This document shows positions 16,865-53,700 of a DNA stretch of 64,000 nucleotides, in pieces. The notes below the pieces were generated by a model. The model was not told where the DNA came from. It was given only the letters and a program-made list of their open reading frames with translations, and did no database searches. Numbering within the stretch: position 1 is the stretch's first letter; each line of letters begins with the position of its first letter. This DNA is from Gammaproteobacteria bacterium. Lineage in GTDB: Bacteria; Pseudomonadota; Gammaproteobacteria; Pseudomonadales; Pseudomonadaceae. The DNA lies in the NCBI GenBank assembly GCA_012728315.1, contig JAAYFI010000026.1, forward strand, positions 1 through 64,000, read 5' to 3'. The translations under genes were made by a program, and so were the position numbers.

Positions 16865-17866
16865 ATGCTGATGGTAGAAGAAGAAAGCGTGATGGATGTA
16901 GAAACCTCCAGTGCTAACCAGAGCAGTGAGCCAGCTTCGAGCAAGACAGCGCCAGAGATTAAGATTGGCTTAAAGAAGTGGACACCTGATGCGCCGTATC
17001 TGACTCGGTTACGCGAGGCGAGCGATGCAGACCTCTACGCCATCTATCTGGATCAGCGCGCCGACTGGATCAACAGTAGCGCTTACTATCTGGATGCCGC
17101 CGATGAACTGATCGAGCGCAAGCAGACTGAGCTGGGCTTGCGCGTGTTATCCAATCTTGCGGAAATGGATCTGGAAAATCGCGCCATCTTACGCATTCTT
17201 GGCTATCGATTATTGCAAGCTGGTAAGCCCGCTCTGGCTGTACCCGTGTTTGAGCAAGTGCGTGATCTTGCACCGTTCGAGCCGCAATCGTTCCGCGATC
17301 TCGGTCTGGCCTATGCTGACGTAGGTGAAATGCAGAAAGCTGCAGATGCACTTTACGAAGTTGCCAAGGGCGAATGGGACGGACGCTTTGCCGAAGTTGG
17401 CCTGATCGCTCTGACGGAATTAAATGCCTTAATCGCCACTCACCCGAACACGATCGATACCTCAGGTTTTGACCAGCGCCTGTTGCGCAACCTGCCAGTC
17501 GATCTGCGCGTGGTGCTCAACTGGGATGCTGACAACACCGATATGGATCTTTGGGTCACCGACCCAAACGGCGAACGCGCCTACTACGGCAATCGCTTGA
17601 CCCATCAGGGCGGGCGCATGTCGAATGACTTAACCGCAGGCTACGGCCCGGAAGATTTTATGCTCAAGAAGGCGATACCCGGCACCTACACAGTTGAGGC
17701 CAACTACTACGGCAGCCAGCAGCAACTTATTTCAGGCAGCGTGACGCTACGTTTGGCTTTGATTACTGATTTCGGTAAGCCCAAGGCCAAACAGCAATCG
17801 GTGATTTTGCGGTTGGAAGAGAAGCAGCAGACGGTGCTGGTGGGTGAGTTTGAGGTTAGTCCTTAG
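16865..17866 (+). CDS. DUF2135 (YfaP-like) domain protein, probably the 3' part of a larger gene
   Basis: TPR-like middle plus C-terminal VLNWDADNTDMDLWVTDPNGERAYYGNRLTHQGGRMSNDLTAGYGPEDF, typical of DUF2135. No clear RBS; begins at a rearranged junction. Confidence 0.6.
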   Translation: MLMVEEESVMDVETSSANQSSEPASSKTAPEIKIGLKKWTPDAPYLTRLREASDADLYAIYLDQRADWINSSAYYLDAADELIERKQTELGLRVLSNLAEMDLENRAILRILGYRLLQAGKPALAVPVFEQVRDLAPFEPQSFRDLGLAYADVGEMQKAADALYEVAKGEWDGRFAEVGLIALTELNALIATHPNTIDTSGFDQRLLRNLPVDLRVVLNWDADNTDMDLWVTDPNGERAYYGNRLTHQGGRMSNDLTAGYGPEDFMLKKAIPGTYTVEANYYGSQQQLISGSVTLRLALITDFGKPKAKQQSVILRLEEKQQTVLVGEFEVSP

Positions 17867-17910: not shown

Positions 17911-18195
17911 TTATACCTATGCATGCGTGTTTCCCTTTTGGGTTGTGCACAACTTCCTGATCTGTTTTATATAAAGTACTTTCAAAACAATAAGTTATAG
18001 TCCGGCCGAGAAAATAGCAGGCATGACTTTAAGGGTGTTTTTGTGCATACTCGTTTGTATTCTGCTAGCTGGATTGCAGGCAGGGTAAAAGCTGAGTATA
18101 AATAAAGACATAGTTGTAATTTTTTGAATTTGGCATGACAGAGAAACGCGCATGCTTACTAATATAATGTTAGAAATTTACGGGAGGACTTTAAG

Positions 18196-18723
18196 TTGTC
18201 TGAAGCAGGGAAGTTGTTTGAGTATTCAATAAAAGACGCAGAAAAATTATTGGCGCGATTCGATTCGGATAAGCACGATCCATCGAACGGATCAGAAACC
18301 TTAAAAAGAGCGGGAATGATCATCGCATTGGCTGCTTGGGAAACCTATATTAAGGATCGGTTTCGTGAGGAGATTGATGTTTGGCTTTGTTCCTTAAAAG
18401 GAAGTCAAATCTCGAATTTTGTATTAAAAAAAGTCGATGAAGATCTTAAACGCTTTTTTAATCCAAATCACGAGCGTACGAAGCACCTATTCAAAACATA
18501 TTTTGATATTGATATCACTGAGTATTGGAAATGGGATAATTATCTCCAGCCTCAAGCAAAGAAGGCATTAAATGAGCTTATTTCAAAGCGAGGGGATGCT
18601 GCGCATCAAGCCAATACAAACGCCTATTCAGCACATATTGTTAAGCGAGATGACTTGGAAAAAGCTATAAGGTTTTTGAAAGGACTGGTAAGTGCAACTG
18701 AGAAAGTTAAAATTGCTAAATAG
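18196..18723 (+). CDS. Cassette 1: HEPN-like protein (RiboL-PSP-HEPN / MAE_28990-like), possible RNase
   Basis: 175 aa, TTG start after GGGAGGA. All-helical pattern with ALAAWETYIKDRF and a C-terminal KRGDAAHQ, which fits the HEPN RX4H motif (R-GDAA-H). Confidence 0.65.
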   Translation: MSEAGKLFEYSIKDAEKLLARFDSDKHDPSNGSETLKRAGMIIALAAWETYIKDRFREEIDVWLCSLKGSQISNFVLKKVDEDLKRFFNPNHERTKHLFKTYFDIDITEYWKWDNYLQPQAKKALNELISKRGDAAHQANTNAYSAHIVKRDDLEKAIRFLKGLVSATEKVKIAK

Positions 18724-18781
18724 TTTTAACAAGTCACAGAAGATGGACGCGTAAAACGCGCCCCTTCGTTCAGCGTTAGGC
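18724..18781 (+). other. attC site 1
   Basis: TTTTAACAAGTCACAGAAGATGGACGCGTAAAACGCGCCCCTTCGTTCAGCGTTAGGC; imperfect inverted symmetry, R'' and R' boxes. Confidence 0.85.
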
Positions 18782-18811
18782 TCCATTTTTCTACCAGAAG
18801 GTTAAGTACCG

Positions 18812-19648
18812 TTGTCTATACAAAAAAAAGGGAAGATCTGGTTCGAAAGGGCTCAAACCCTCTGTTTAGATCTCAATCGAAGCCAGAAATTCTTCTTCTT
18901 CGGTGTGATTATAGGTTTGGTAGCACTTCTTTGGCGGTTAACACCATTTGATAAGGCGTTCCTTTCCGTTGCCATATTGAGTGGTTTACTCCTGGTCTCA
19001 GGGGTGATTTCTGACCTTCTATCAATTTACGCTCGGACTTTTAGCACGACTCTAGGAAAAGGGGGACTCCTACTTTTATATGCGCTAGCTACTACCACCG
19101 CCTATGCGTTGGCAACCCAAATTGTTAACCAAGTTGTTGCTTTTGAGGCGTCAAATCTTAGTAACGCGATTGTCTTTGTTGCAATCCTCCTCGTTCCCCT
19201 ATTTATATTTGGCTTAACGTATATTCTGTTCGCCTTAATATTCATCTTAGGACAGGTGTATCTTATTCTTGCCATGTTTGCTAAGTCGTTGAGAAATGAC
19301 GAGTGTTTCAAGCATTTGATACCGATAAATTTTGAGTGCTACCCTGGGGTTACATTTTTTGCGAGGCTTATCATATACCCTGCGACATTGGGGTTTATTT
19401 GGGGTCTCGGTGGAAGCCTTCTGCCAAAGTACGAAGATTTTGTTAACGAGTCGGCCGCTGCCTTTATCTATCACTTAGAGGCTGTGAAATTCTCTAGATG
19501 TGAAAACGTGCCCACTGACGCAAAGGTTCTCCATATCAACGAGATGGAAATTTTAATAGCAACTGTGACAGATGGGGAGTATGTGTTCGAACCAATGGCA
19601 TGTGTTCCACGTATTGTGCCTAACAAATCACGGAAGGCGGACGCGTGA
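18812..19648 (+). CDS. Cassette 2: multi-TM membrane protein of unknown function
   Basis: 278 aa, TTG start. Hydrophobic stretches FFFFGVIIGLVALLW, AFLSVAILSGLLLVSGVI, GGLLLLYALATTTAYAL, AIVFVAILLVPLFIFGLTYILFALIFILGQVYLI. The stop lies inside attC2. Confidence 0.65.
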   Translation: MSIQKKGKIWFERAQTLCLDLNRSQKFFFFGVIIGLVALLWRLTPFDKAFLSVAILSGLLLVSGVISDLLSIYARTFSTTLGKGGLLLLYALATTTAYALATQIVNQVVAFEASNLSNAIVFVAILLVPLFIFGLTYILFALIFILGQVYLILAMFAKSLRNDECFKHLIPINFECYPGVTFFARLIIYPATLGFIWGLGGSLLPKYEDFVNESAAAFIYHLEAVKFSRCENVPTDAKVLHINEMEILIATVTDGEYVFEPMACVPRIVPNKSRKADA

Positions 19649-19675
19649 GATGCGCCGCTTCGTTCAGCGTTAGAA
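19618..19675 (+). other. attC site 2
   Basis: GCCTAACAAATCACGGAAGGCGGACGCGTGAGATGCGCCGCTTCGTTCAGCGTTAGAA; same 58-bp length and right half as attC1. Confidence 0.9.
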
Positions 19676-19713
19676 GGTTATCAGCTGCAATTTTCAGCTA
19701 ATCTAGGAGCGAT

Positions 19714-20640
19714 ATGGAACTAAAAACTATAGATGAAGCGTACCGCCCACATATTGACCGGATTATTCGGGAATCATCTGGTATCAAGTACGAGGCTATG
19801 TTTCTCGAACCGAATCCTGCCGCATTTGATCCTCATAACGCGATTGAGATGTTTCAGGAAGTGCAATCTGTATATGTTCGCGGGATACTTGAGAGATCGC
19901 ACTTAGCATGCATCACTTCATTGGCCAGGACGTCTCGGTGGCTCTCATCCACTATTCGCTCAGTTGAAGACGGGAATGCGCTATCTTTTTCTAGCTCATT
20001 GCGAGGTTTGCTGGAATCATCATCCGATTCCTTTCATTTGCTGCAGCATCTTTTTGCGACTTTAGAGCCTTCGTGCAAGTACATATATATTGCCCTCAAT
20101 TATCCCAAGGATCTTCAGAGCGGATTTATAAATTTTGAAAGCCTAGAGAACCTCCTTATCCATTATGCTTATGCCAAGCGCTGGAATAAAGGCGAAGAGC
20201 CACCGCCGCAGCACCGTAATAGGTCCAATTCAGAGTATATCCAATGTTTGGAAAACTTTGGTGTTTCTGGGCTTTCGGAGCTTTATTCTGAGCTGTGCCA
20301 GTTGACGCACCCGGCATCGCCGTCAGTTTTTTGCTTTGTAGATGAGAATGAAAGGGAGCTTATCTTTAATCCGAACCGAGATTTGATCGTAATTAACGAT
20401 ATTTTGAATCGGTATCAAAGCTCAATTGTAGGCCTCATTCAATATCCCTTGAATTCGGCGTTAATGGCGCTCGCGTTACTCCATAGGCTGGTACCCGATT
20501 GGCCTGCAATGTCTGATGAAGGTATGAGCACAATCGGTAAGACGGCTAAAATCCTTAGTGATTTCGACAAGTTTTCTAATGAATACCGGCCAGGCACTGG
20601 GATTTCAGGTGCGGAACTTAAATCGGCGAGCGGTCACTGA
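19714..20640 (+). CDS. Cassette 3: 308-aa protein of unknown function
   Basis: ATG after AGGAGCG. Mostly helical; SSSLRGLLESSSDSFHLL and LYSELCQLTHPASPSV resemble the R...E / Y..L...H pattern of DUF5677-like proteins (tentative). Confidence 0.6.
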   Translation: MELKTIDEAYRPHIDRIIRESSGIKYEAMFLEPNPAAFDPHNAIEMFQEVQSVYVRGILERSHLACITSLARTSRWLSSTIRSVEDGNALSFSSSLRGLLESSSDSFHLLQHLFATLEPSCKYIYIALNYPKDLQSGFINFESLENLLIHYAYAKRWNKGEEPPPQHRNRSNSEYIQCLENFGVSGLSELYSELCQLTHPASPSVFCFVDENERELIFNPNRDLIVINDILNRYQSSIVGLIQYPLNSALMALALLHRLVPDWPAMSDEGMSTIGKTAKILSDFDKFSNEYRPGTGISGAELKSASGH

Positions 20641-20649
20641 TAAGCAGTC

Positions 20650-20698
20650 TTCTAACAAGGCCATGCGCGCGACAAGCGCGTGCATGGCGGCGTTAGCA
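20650..20698 (+). other. attC site 3
   Basis: TTCTAACAAGGCCATGCGCGCGACAAGCGCGTGCATGGCGGCGTTAGCA; strong inverted repeat GCCATGCGCGC/GCGCGTGCATGGC. Confidence 0.9.
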
Positions 20699-20717
20699 CC
20701 ATATTAAGGATATAAGT

Positions 20718-21456
20718 TTGAGCCCAAAATCACATACGCTTTTTCATTTTACTAAAACGAACGATGTGTTAAAGATGGTTATAAAAAATGGTTTCTGGCC
20801 TAGATACTGTTTAGAGGATGTTGGGTGGCTTGGTTATCCAGAGTTCGATTTCATTGCTTATCCAATGGTTTGTTTCTGTGATATTCCATTATCTCGTGTT
20901 AATGAGCATGTAAATTTTTACGGTGAATTTGGAATTGGGCTGACAAAAGAATGGGCAAATAGTAACAAACTCACACCTATATTATACGTAGCTCCCAACA
21001 ATAATATTCCCAAAAAATTTAGAGATATCGTTGATTTTACTCATAAAATAGAGGGCGCAGCAAAAGAAGATGCCAAACAAACAGTTCGTTATTTGCTAGC
21101 ACATGCTAAGCCTACTGAAGGGAAAATGGTTATTAGTGGTGAGTTTATCGATAAAGAATTTCATCAGGAGTCAGAGTGGCATTATGTTCCAAAAAATGTA
21201 GAGATTAAAGACTATTTAAAGCGCCCTGAATTTGAAAAATGAAGAAATAATCGAGGTTAATAACAATCTAACTAAACAGTATTGTTCAATTAAATTTACA
21301 CCGAAAGATATAAAATATATTTTTGTAAAAAGTGATTCGGACATACCGAATATTATAAACTTTATACAAACTGAATTAGACTATTTCCCTAGCTCTGATC
21401 TTAAGGTATTAATGTCTCGTGTTACATCACTGGAAAGTATTCGCCGTGATATTTAG
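20718..21456 (+). pseudogene. Cassette 4: AbiGi-like abortive-infection protein, split by a +1 frameshift (track ORFs 20718..21242 and 21232..21456)
   Basis: ORF1 HTLFHFTKTNDVLKMVIKNGFWPRYCLEDVGWL...PMVCFCDIPLSRVNEHVNFYGEFGIGLTKEWANSNKLTPILYV matches the AbiGi pattern. ORF2 IKFTPKDIKYIFVKSDSDIPNIINFI...RVTSLESIRRDI looks like its C-terminus. Removing one A from the GAAAAATGAAG run joins them as ...RPEFENEEIIEV... Confidence 0.7.
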
Positions 21457-21532
21457 TGCTAACAAAGCCAATCACAATCGCCAGAAAGCTGGCTGGACTC
21501 GCTGACGCTCGCCTGTGTTGGCGGCGTTAGGA
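21457..21532 (+). other. attC site 4
   Basis: TGCTAACAAAGCCAATCACAATCGCCAGAAAGCTGGCTGGACTCGCTGACGCTCGCCTGTGTTGGCGGCGTTAGGA (76 bp). Confidence 0.88.
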
Positions 21533-21559: not shown

Positions 21560-23536
21560 TCAGCGCAGCTGAATACCGCCAGACTCGTTGTGCAGCTGCC
21601 GTAATTGCCGTGAGAGCAGGTTGATATTAGCGCCGGTCGCGTCTAGTTGCTGGCGCTGTTCTGCGCTCATCAGTGTGAGCAGGTGTTGTTCCAGGTCTTC
21701 AGTACTGGTCAGTAACATCTGCTGCCGAGCTGCGGCAATTTTGAGGAATTGCTGTGATTCCTGTGGTTGCGGCAAACCATAACCCTCGCTCAACAGCTCT
21801 CCGGGGCGGCTCAAAAAGCTGCTGCCACTCAGTAGCCCTTGCATCACCTGCGCGGCTTCGGTCAGCTCCGGTGGCGCATCGTTGGAGAGGAAGCGCAGTT
21901 TGAGATCCTGCTGTATGTCCAGCACATGCCGACGCTGAATAGCTTCTTCAAGCACTAGCAAGGCAGCTGTGGAGCGGGTGTTTGCTGCTGCAAACCAGGT
22001 TTGTCGGTTGCTGGCTGGGCTGCTGAGCCAGTCTTCTAAGCGTGCAAAGGGTATTTGTAACTGGCGGCGTAGTACCTCGAACATCTGGTTGTAGCGTTCG
22101 CGGTAGGAGTCGAAGTAGTAGCCTTGGCGTAGCGCTGCCTGACGATCCTGCAATGGTTTCAGGTCAGCCAATCCGCGTGCGTGAAGCAATGCCAGCAGAC
22201 CGGTAGGGGTTTGACTGTCGAGGCTCTGCAGTTGGGGCAAGGCACTGCCGCTGCGCAGTAATTTCAAGGTTTCCACTGCACAGTTGTTGCTCACGAAATA
22301 ATAGGTGCCGTCATAACTCCAGTGCAGGGCAGTGGCCTGTTGAGCCAGCCGCTGACGGGCTTGGGCATCCAGCCGTAGGGGAACCGAGCTGAGACCACGC
22401 AGTTCAAGCTGAGTGTATTCATCCACGACTTTTTGCAGCGGCAGCAGGAACAGGCGGGATGGGTAATTGCCCATTAAACCATCCCAGCTGGATAGCTGCA
22501 CATCATCGACAAAGGCGCGAAAGGACAGCACTAGGTGGTGCTCCAGATCCAGCAGGCAGTCGGGCCCCGGCGTTCGACCCGGAGCACAGATGACCAACCG
22601 CAACATGCTGTGGCCCCAACGGCCCGCCCAGCTTTCATCCGGTTCAGCCAGTAGATAATGCACCTGATAAATACGTTCCGGATCGAGCCAGGCCAGTGCT
22701 GGTTGGTTGCTGTCCAGACTGGTATTTAAATAGGGGAGCTCCGTTGCACATGGCTGGGTGTGGGCGGGAGTCCAAGCAAAATGTGCTTGCAGATAATCAG
22801 CTAAAGCTGGGCGACGGCAAGCGTACTGCGGATCCAGTAGAAAATACTCTAGATTGACCGCCAAAAACTCCTGTGGGTTGTGGAGTTCGTAGGTGTCTGG
22901 GCTGCGCAGGTGTTGGAAGTTGTCTGAGTCGCGTAGCCCGCGTTTGCCGACCTGCTGCTGCCAGCCAGCCAGATCCTGCCAATGGGGTGCGTCGCTAAGG
23001 GTAAATTGCCTGTTGGTCTGGCCTCGGCACTCGCTGGGCAGGCCGATATGACCTTGGACGCGTTCGCGACTACGGCAGTACTGCAGCAGTGAGCGCTCAT
23101 CGGCTAGCCAGAAAAGCCCGCGGTCATACAGGTGCGCGAGTTCATGAATGAGTGTCGCTTTGAGCTCTGAGCGTAGAGTGGGGTGTTGGCGACTGGGGAT
23201 ATTCTGGGTGTCGCTTGCGGAGAGAAGATCCGGCAGCCAGCGTTGATTCAGCGTGATTTTTCCGCCTGGGCTGGCACGGCCGATCACGTTATCCGGCAGA
23301 CGCTGGCTCCAGCTGACCGATACTGTCTGATTCAGTTGCTCGACCATCCTTGGCGGCAAGACTGTAAACACCTCATCCAGCAATTGCTGGGAGGCGTGCA
23401 GTTGATCTTCTGTTAGTTGCTGCTGCTCAAGCTGTAAGCGCAGAGCCGCCTGTACAGGCAAGACTGTTAGCAGCAAGAGGCTGAAGAGCAGTGCATAGGT
23501 GGATAGCCTCTGCTGTTTCCATCCACGGTGACTCAA
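21560..23536 (-). CDS. DUF4105 / Lnb N-terminal periplasmic domain-containing protein
   Basis: Signal peptide, ELKATLIHELAHLYDRG, ESWAGRWGHSMLRLVICAPG, YDGTYYFVSNNCAVETLKLL. Confidence 0.8.
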   Translation of the reverse strand: MSHRGWKQQRLSTYALLFSLLLLTVLPVQAALRLQLEQQQLTEDQLHASQQLLDEVFTVLPPRMVEQLNQTVSVSWSQRLPDNVIGRASPGGKITLNQRWLPDLLSASDTQNIPSRQHPTLRSELKATLIHELAHLYDRGLFWLADERSLLQYCRSRERVQGHIGLPSECRGQTNRQFTLSDAPHWQDLAGWQQQVGKRGLRDSDNFQHLRSPDTYELHNPQEFLAVNLEYFLLDPQYACRRPALADYLQAHFAWTPAHTQPCATELPYLNTSLDSNQPALAWLDPERIYQVHYLLAEPDESWAGRWGHSMLRLVICAPGRTPGPDCLLDLEHHLVLSFRAFVDDVQLSSWDGLMGNYPSRLFLLPLQKVVDEYTQLELRGLSSVPLRLDAQARQRLAQQATALHWSYDGTYYFVSNNCAVETLKLLRSGSALPQLQSLDSQTPTGLLALLHARGLADLKPLQDRQAALRQGYYFDSYRERYNQMFEVLRRQLQIPFARLEDWLSSPASNRQTWFAAANTRSTAALLVLEEAIQRRHVLDIQQDLKLRFLSNDAPPELTEAAQVMQGLLSGSSFLSRPGELLSEGYGLPQPQESQQFLKIAAARQQMLLTSTEDLEQHLLTLMSAEQRQQLDATGANINLLSRQLRQLHNESGGIQLR

Positions 23537-50731: not shown

Positions 50732-53700
50732 TTACACCCTTTCCACGTTAACAAGGAAGGATTTGAACTCTGGGGTATGGGTATTACCGTCTCCAACAAA
50801 AGGCGTTAGCGTGTTGGTGAGGTAACCGTTTTTCGCCACCCCGACAAATCCCCAGTGCAGCGGAATACCGACGTGGTGCACGGTCTTGCCATCCACCAAG
50901 AGCGGTCTGAGCCGTTTGGTGACTACCGCTACCGCTTCGATATAACCACGGTTGGACGATACTCGCACTCGATCGCCCGCCTTGATGCCGAGCTCTTCGG
51001 CCATGACTGCGCCAAGTTCGACAAACTGTTGTGGCTGGGTAATCGCGTTGATCCGGCTGTGCTTGGTCCAGAAGTGAAAGTGCTCCGTCAGGCGATAGGT
51101 GGTCGCTGCATAAGGAAACTCCTTCGCAGTGCCGAACACATCCATATCGTTACGGAACACCCGTGCTGCTGGATTGCTGGTGACGCCCGGTGAGCTCGGG
51201 TGCAAGGGGTTACGGCCAATAGGCGTTTCGAACGGTTCATAATGCTCAGGGAATGGGCCTTCGGCCATGTTGCCACGAGCAAAGAAACGCGCCACACCTT
51301 CAGGGTTCATAATGAACGGATTCATTTTGTCTTCTGGCGCTGAAGTGAGGGCAAAGTCAGGGACATCGGTACCCGTCCACTTGCTGCCATCCCACCAGAT
51401 CAAGCGTTTGTCCTTATCGTTCCAAGGTTTGCCCGAAGGGTCTGCCGAGGCACGGTTGTAAAGGATGCGGCGGTTGGCTGGCCATGACCACGCCCAACCC
51501 AGTGTCTGACCCATATCATAAGGGTCAGCGTTGTCACGCCGCGCCATTTGGTTGCCTGCTTCGGTCCAGGAGCCGCAGAACAACCAGCAGCCACTGGCTG
51601 TGCTGCCGTCATCACGTAGCTGGCTGAAGCCGGCTAACTGCTGACCTGCGCGCAGGAGCAACTCGCCTGTATTAGGGTCTTTAAGGTCGGTTAAAGCTTT
51701 ACCGTTGAACTCTTTGGCGATTTCTTCGGGGGCCGGTTCGTCGGGACGTTGATACGACCAGTTCAAATTCATGATCGGCTCAGAGAAAGCGCCGCCTTCT
51801 GCTTTATACAGCGCCCGCAGACGATGGAAAAGTCCACCCATAATGGCCACGTCAGGGCGTGCTTCACCCGGAGCTTCACCGCCCTTCCAGTGCCACTGCA
51901 ACCAACGGCTACTGTTAACCAGAGAGCCATTTTCTTCAGCGAAGCAGGTGGTAGGTAAGCGGAATACTGTGGTTTGAATACTCGCCGTATCTACATCGTT
52001 GTATTCATCAACGTGCTTCCAAAACTCCGAGGTTTCAGTGATCAGCGGGTCCATGATGACCAAGTACTTGAGGCGTGCCAGTGCTGCACCTACTTTTGCC
52101 TTGTTGGGGAAGGCTGCAATAGGGTTGAAACCTTGACAGAAATAACCGTTGACCTTGCCTTCGTACATCATGTCGAAGTACTTGAGTACGTCATACATCG
52201 GCTCGTCGAGCTTGGGTAGCCAGTCGTAGCCCCAGTTATTTTCTTTCGTGGCCGCGTCGCCGTACCAGGCTTTCATCAGGCTGACATGGAAACGGCCATA
52301 ATGCTGCCAATAGGACATTTGCCCAGGGCGTAAAGCCTGTGGCGCACGTTTGGCAATATAGGCGTCGTAGTCCTGCTCATGATCACGAGGCAGTGTTAAG
52401 TACCCGGGTAGCAGATTAGACAGCAGGCCTAAGTCGGTCAGCCCCTGAATATTGGAGTGGCCGCGCAAGGCGTTAACCCCGCCACCTGGCATACCCATGT
52501 TGCCGAGCAACAGTTGCAGCATAGCGCCGGCGCGAATCATCTGCGAACCAACCGAGTGCTGTGTCCAGCCCAGAGCATAGAGGATGGTCATGGTTTTGCC
52601 GGGCACGGCAGTCTCGGCAATGGTATCCCACACCTGCATCATACGCTTCAGAGGCGTACCACAGATCTGGCTGACCAACTCCGGTGTATAGCGGCTGTAA
52701 TGTTTTTTGAGCAACTGATAGACGCAGCGCGGGTGGCTTAAGCTCGGATCAACCTTGGCGTAGCCATTTTCGTCAAGCTCATAGTCCCAGTCGCTTTTAT
52801 CAGGATAACTGCGCGAATCTGCGTCATAACCGTTGAATAAGCCATCTTCAAAGGTAAAACCTTCTTTTACGATAAATGGCATATCAGTGTAGTTACGCAC
52901 ATATTCGTGCTGAATCTGATCAGTTTCTAATAAGTAATAAATCAAACCGCCTAAGAAGGCGATATCCGTACCAGTACGAATAGGCGCGTACAGATCGGCC
53001 AGTGAGGCGGTACGCGTGAAACGCGGATCAACCACCAATAATTTGGCTTGATTGTGCGCTTTGGCTTCAGTGACCCACTTAAAACCACAGGGGTGCGCTT
53101 CTGCGGCATTGCCGCCCATCACTAACACCAAGTTGGCGTTTTTGATGTCGCTCCAATGGTTTGTCATGGCTCCACGGCCAAACGTCGGGGCAAGACCTGC
53201 CACCGTCGGACCGTGTCAAACGCGCGCCTGGTTGTCGAAACCCAGAATACCTAGCGAACGCACCACTTTGTGCGTCATATAGCCGGCTTCGCTAGATGCT
53301 GCTGATGCGGCCAGGAAACCTGTAGTCAACCAACGGTTAACGGTTTGTCCTGCAGCATTTTTCTCAACGAAGTTGGCATCGCGATCATCTTTCATTAAGC
53401 GCGCAATGCGGGTTAGGGCATCGTCCCAGCTGATGCGCTTCCATTCATTGCTACCGGCTTCACGTACTTCAGGGTACTGCAAACGATTAGGGCTGCGAAT
53501 AAAGTCAATCAGACCAGCACCTTTTGGACATAAAGTGCCACGGTTTACAGGGTGGTCAGCATCGCCTTCAATATGGAAGATTTCTTGAGTGACGTTCTTA
53601 CCACCACTGCCACGGCTGTACATGATGAGGCCACAGCCCACAGAACAGTAAGGGCAAGTGTTGCGCGACTCTTTGGTGTTGGCTAGTTTGAAGTGGCGAA

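Follow-up and report, generated by a model that had tools for sequence, protein, structure and literature searches.

The gene analysed here is, by the recombination sites around it, the sole gene of the first cassette in a four-cassette integron array. Its product is a stand-alone HEPN protein of the RiboL-PSP family, probably a solitary RNase serving, with no second gene, as an effector of abortive infection or dormancy. The array lies in a stretch of 64,000 nucleotides, the whole of which is hereafter called the window, and coordinates of its features are collected in Table 1.

Table 1. Features of the integron array and its flanks in the window
Feature	Position	Strand	Remarks
Left flanking chromosomal gene, TPR + DUF2135 protein	16865-17866	+	Pfam DUF2135, E 2.8e-16
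intI-less integron platform (attI region)	17911-18169	+	Homologue of the attI region that adjoins the intI remnant of contig C122
attI-type core, GCATGCTTACTAATATAATG followed by TTAGAA	18150-18175	+	Cassette insertion point between G18169 and T18170
Integron gene cassette 1, single ORF	18170-18775	+	606 bp, bounded by attI core and attC1
HEPN_RiboL-PSP protein	18196-18723	+	175 aa, R132-x4-H137; PF18735, E 2.2e-24
attC1	18727-18779	+	Pattern match; 85% identical to attC2
Cassette 2	18776-19669	+	278-aa hydrophobic, probably membrane protein (18812-19648), function unknown
attC2	19621-19673	+	Bottom strand folds with paired outer arms
Cassette 3	19670-20692	+	308-aa protein (19714-20640), function unknown
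attC3	20653-20696	+	Bottom strand folds with paired outer arms
Cassette 4	20693-21526	+	AbiGi-like gene in two frames, 20718-21242 and 21232-21456; PADLOC AbiGi
attC4	21460-21530	+	Outer arms paired in bottom strand; similar attC sites on contig C100 and in G007
Right flanking chromosomal gene, DUF7844 + Lnb_N protein	21560-23536	-	658 aa

Organization of the cassette array

An attC pattern matched five times in the window, against about 0.1 matches expected from shuffled windows, and four of these matches are consecutive within 2.8 kb, in the same orientation and each 3′ of a gene. The fifth match (50749-50809), alone and far from the array, was taken as due to chance. A finder demanding full complementarity of R″ and R′ missed the sites of the array, since R′ belongs to the next cassette. 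Cassette 1 has the make-up of an integron gene cassette: a single ORF, an attC with R″ and R′ cores, and a bottom strand that can be folded, although for attC1 this concerns the inner part only, the unconstrained MFE structure leaving the outer arms unpaired. The sequence 3′ of the HEPN stop codon, TAACAAGTCAC...AGCGTTAG, corresponds to attC1.

Besides the 528 coding bases of the HEPN ORF, cassette 1 has just 78 other bases, which include the ribosome-binding site and non-coding attC sequence, so that no antitoxin or MNT gene fits. The adjacent MNT nucleotidyltransferase gene of HEPN-MNT toxin-antitoxin systems is thus missing from the locus, and the neighbouring cassettes gave no MNT match. 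The sequence-only reading, which had called the gene a single-gene cassette lacking an obvious MNT partner, was literally right on both counts, the attC sites themselves being absent from it.

Among the other cassettes, the protein of cassette 2 matched no family above threshold in profile searches, and a relative of the cassette 3 protein (33% identity over 249 aa, E 4e-34) is encoded by cassette 1 of another platform, in genome G009. The two pieces of cassette 4 matched the PADLOC AbiGi model with E-values of 1.5e-44 (model positions 18-177) and 8.7e-9 (191-259). The frame change that splits them sits at an A-run and could reflect a genuine frameshift, slippage or an error of assembly. AbiGi was considered as the antitoxin of the HEPN protein and rejected: it lies in a separate cassette, is frame-broken and is a homologue of AbiGi, one of the two halves of AbiG. 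The same genome carries another cassette array, with at least five attC sites, on contig C100 (L019, 85-2352).

Family, motif and selection of the HEPN gene

The ORF starts with TTG, seven bases downstream of the ribosome-binding site GGGAGGA. Its product matched Pfam family PF18735 (HEPN_RiboL-PSP) with 86.9 bits, against a cutoff of 28.4, over residues 12-170, corresponding to positions 3-187 of the 191 in the profile. This bears out the assignment to HEPN proteins made beforehand from the letters, as well as the C-terminal sequence and the R-GDAA-H motif on which it was founded; of the two types then proposed, RiboL-PSP stood and MAE_28990, a separate HEPN family in PMC3710099, did not. Across 23 aligned homologues, 39–96% identical, R132 and H137 of the RX4H motif are invariant in all, as are K131, G133 and, in the 'AWETYxxDR' stretch of predicted helix 2, E49. 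With such invariance, a chance occurrence of the motif can be discounted, and these residues fit the HEPN active-site pattern, which consists of RX4-6H and an acidic residue in helix 2 (PMC3710099). Other functions are known for certain HEPN families in which the motif has been lost (PMC3710099), and the protein could by analogy bind RNA or nucleotides, or act as a scaffold, with no nuclease function; the conservation of all five residues down to 39% identity makes this very unlikely.

The HEPN fold is a four-helix bundle whose motif closes helix 3 and lies at a dimer interface. Structure prediction gave two AlphaFold2 models, all helical and of low confidence (mean pLDDT 49.8 and 47.8). With the first of these low-confidence models (pLDDT 49.8), Foldseek found no significant match, HepT-type HEPN toxins recurring at E-values of about 0.9 and worse, an outcome that was given no weight. 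No relevant match was obtained when the PDB was searched by sequence and by profile; PHROGs gave marginal matches only, to families of unknown function, and an Rfam scan of the locus returned nothing. Homologues were found neither in the E. coli genomes searched nor in viral contigs and phage records, and for the latter reason the gene is not obviously phage-borne.

Comparison of the window gene with its Marinobacter copy yielded a dN/dS of 0.021 at a dS of 0.83, and the values for the Marinobacter and Aestuariibacter copies together ranged from 0.014 to 0.021. Judged by these ratios, the gene has been under strong purifying selection.

Homologues and movement of the cassette

Closely related copies, 87–96% identical in amino acid sequence, were found in Marinobacter (L023, L024), Aestuariibacter (L025) and Gilvimarinus (L026); relatives within the bacterial family of the window are about 40–51% identical. 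In L023, L025 and L026 the cassette has the same boundaries as in the window, starting with GTTAGAA and ending with TTCTAAC..., arms that are complementary as a circular cassette needs, and in each it sits in a different array context. The occurrence of one cassette in different contexts in three genera points to excision and insertion mediated by IntI, and the sequences show that it moved horizontally between genera, among several marine bacteria. The Gilvimarinus copy (L026, 5998-6520) is a pseudogene that has lost its start codon and carries a frameshift near its 3′ end, so the HEPN gene is dispensable.

As judged by eye, an attC lies directly downstream of about 14 of 26 homologues. None was seen by eye beside those of L029, Aeromonas (L030), Vibrio (L032), L045, L047 (in G005, of the same genus) and others, and thus some relatives lie outside cassettes. 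On a Klebsiella IncC plasmid, a homologue with 43% identity adjoins an intact intI and lies between two near-identical attC-like sequences. At L041, two HEPN cassettes of the RiboL-PSP family stand in tandem with an attC between them.

Single-gene cassettes of the form attC-HEPN-attC recur beside unrelated neighbours. The protein might be a stress-dormancy RNase, or an addiction-type toxin with no dedicated antitoxin, kept for slowed growth under stress or for stability of the array and not for defence against phage. Anantharaman et al. proposed in 2013 that a different integron HEPN family induces dormancy (PMC3710099), and sister platforms carry toxin-antitoxin cassettes (RelB/ParE in G007, Phd/YefM-RelE-like in G005). 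An addiction toxin standing alone needs an antidote, whereas the non-coding bases of cassette 1 leave no space for an antitoxin gene; the unrelated neighbours of such cassettes also count against this explanation, which is given a low probability.

attI platform and missing integrase

The 260 bp preceding cassette 1 align with the attI region of contig C122 and with copies at other loci, amounting to 11 platforms plus that of C122. The match on contig C125 to the window platform is 75%; the copies include L075/L103 (C125:7293-7379), L098 (C122:566-588) and L077-L105. A search for the core GCATGCNTNCTAATANNNTRTTA that allowed one mismatch found 19 sites, distributed over 7 of the 12 genomes of the genus; the 187 further genomes from the family had none, and the reversed core used as a control gave no match. 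About 300 bp upstream of 5 of the 19 cores, an N-terminal stretch of intI or a remnant of it is present, which makes the platforms look derived from an intI-attI unit that was copied and in most cases lost intI.

No intI was found at the window locus, which therefore does not have the intI adjoining attI of a complete integron, and no full-length intI was found in the genome. The only trace there, on C122 (L002, 877-1240), joins model positions 1-48 to 249-315, a large internal deletion; genome G010 has a full-length intI. By these sequence features, the platform of the array is a relic that has lost its integrase. This raises the possibility that the HEPN gene is a silent passenger, an unexpressed relic cassette in a frozen array and functionless in its present host. 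In addition to the state of intI, the broken frame of cassette 4, the decayed Gilvimarinus copy and the failure to find a consensus promoter upstream of the HEPN ORF are in keeping with it. Yet the window copy is intact, and its dN/dS near 0.02, at a dS of 0.8, speaks against such a fate, with the limit that this selection may date from earlier hosts. We regard a functionless gene as unlikely.

Among the cassettes located 3′ of attI platforms are those for CSD, Mrr, Cap15, Phd/YefM and the relative of the cassette 3 protein. The gene for Cap15, a CBASS effector, lies within 0.7 kb of an attI platform (L101/L087, G007:C5). Two other attI cores, L095 and L096 (G007:C4 and G005:105k), are followed by nearly identical sequence, TTGCACATAGCCGCT, after which G007 has a Y2_Tnp (IS91-like) transposase, suggesting insertion at attI. 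The dispersed, mostly intI-less platforms point to a storage of integron cassettes that can extend over a chromosome instead of being confined to one array. Literature searches found no description of these platforms, which is weak evidence of novelty, and they may be a more novel finding than the HEPN cassette.

Chromosomal context

On the left side, the stretch homologous to the same-genus genome G001 ends at 17925. In G001 an ABC-3C system occupies the interval that separates the DUF2135 gene from the Lnb_N gene, and in G007 the same right flank is accompanied by a RelB/ParE cassette and parts of a group IIC intron. Compared across these genomes, the interval is a variable, defence-rich spot. 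Group II intron pieces (Rfam D1-D4) were detected at L071 (808-1188) and, as a weak match at a contig end, at L002 (1-150); they stand directly 3′ of an attC site, as in group IIC-attC introns, and may explain contig breaks.

Proposed function

For the HEPN protein we infer an RNase fold and activity, a trigger and a part in phage defence. The protein would dimerize, and at the dimer interface the two RX4H motifs would together make up an RNase site that needs no metal. The enzyme would stay silent until a signal of infection or stress released it; it would then cut RNA (mRNA or tRNA) and arrest growth, so that phage would not be propagated. Next to attI, cassette 1 is expected to have the highest expression in the array, a position that would suit a gene harmless until triggered. 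The effector reading is favoured by the AbiGi-like array neighbour and by the ABC-3C system and RelB/ParE cassette at the corresponding loci of G001 and G007, and disfavoured by the broken Gilvimarinus copy, the relatives without attC, the absence of a match for the protein in PADLOC-DB and the lack of a consensus promoter.

A more far-reaching version, which we put forward tentatively and hold to be rather improbable, is that of a portable HEPN immune effector, encoded by one gene, complete in itself and itself sensing infection, within a decentralized integron in which many attI platforms, mostly without intI, are spread over the chromosome of the genus and receive defence-type cassettes in trans.

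Comparison with known systems

These observations tie the little-studied RiboL-PSP HEPN family to integrons. They describe a single-gene, partner-free HEPN protein that moves between genera, a clinical-type conjugative plasmid included. One-gene cassettes of this kind are easy to test and directly raise the question of what keeps a HEPN RNase inactive when no antitoxin is present.

The protein resembles the RiboL-PSP-HEPN family (PF18735; Anantharaman et al. 2013, PMC3710099) in its match to nearly the whole domain profile and in its conserved RX4H. Members of that family were described as fusions with endoRNase L-PSP or in operons with ParB, whereas the window gene is a stand-alone, single-gene cassette. 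With the abortive infection proteins Abi2/AbiF/AbiD it shares the HEPN character and the single-gene format, and RiboL-PSP HEPN has been called distantly related to AbiF/AbiD (PMC3710099). Unlike them, it gave no Abi_2 match in Pfam. As in CALIN, cassette arrays lacking intI such as those of Xanthomonas (PMC12444791), the attC cluster is remote from any intact intI and occupies a locus that recurs within the genus; unlike CALIN, it retains a recognizable attI platform that is multi-copy in the genus.

Anti-phage cassettes and a different HEPN family were already known from integrons (PMC12409362 and PMC3710099, respectively). That HEPN family (PDB 3jrt, PMC3710099) likewise has RX4-6H inside an integron cassette, although phmmer and profile searches at E ≤ 10 detected no sequence relation to the window protein. 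At least 16 of 179 Vibrio cholerae integron cassettes have proven anti-phage activity (PMC12409362). The window cassette is, like the anti-phage cassettes of Darracq 2025 and Kieffer 2025 reviewed there, a small, single-ORF, defence-type cassette in an array, with the difference that activity was proven for those and is presumed for this one. Taken with the known anti-phage cassettes and the known integron HEPN family, the window cassette adds to known kinds of system.
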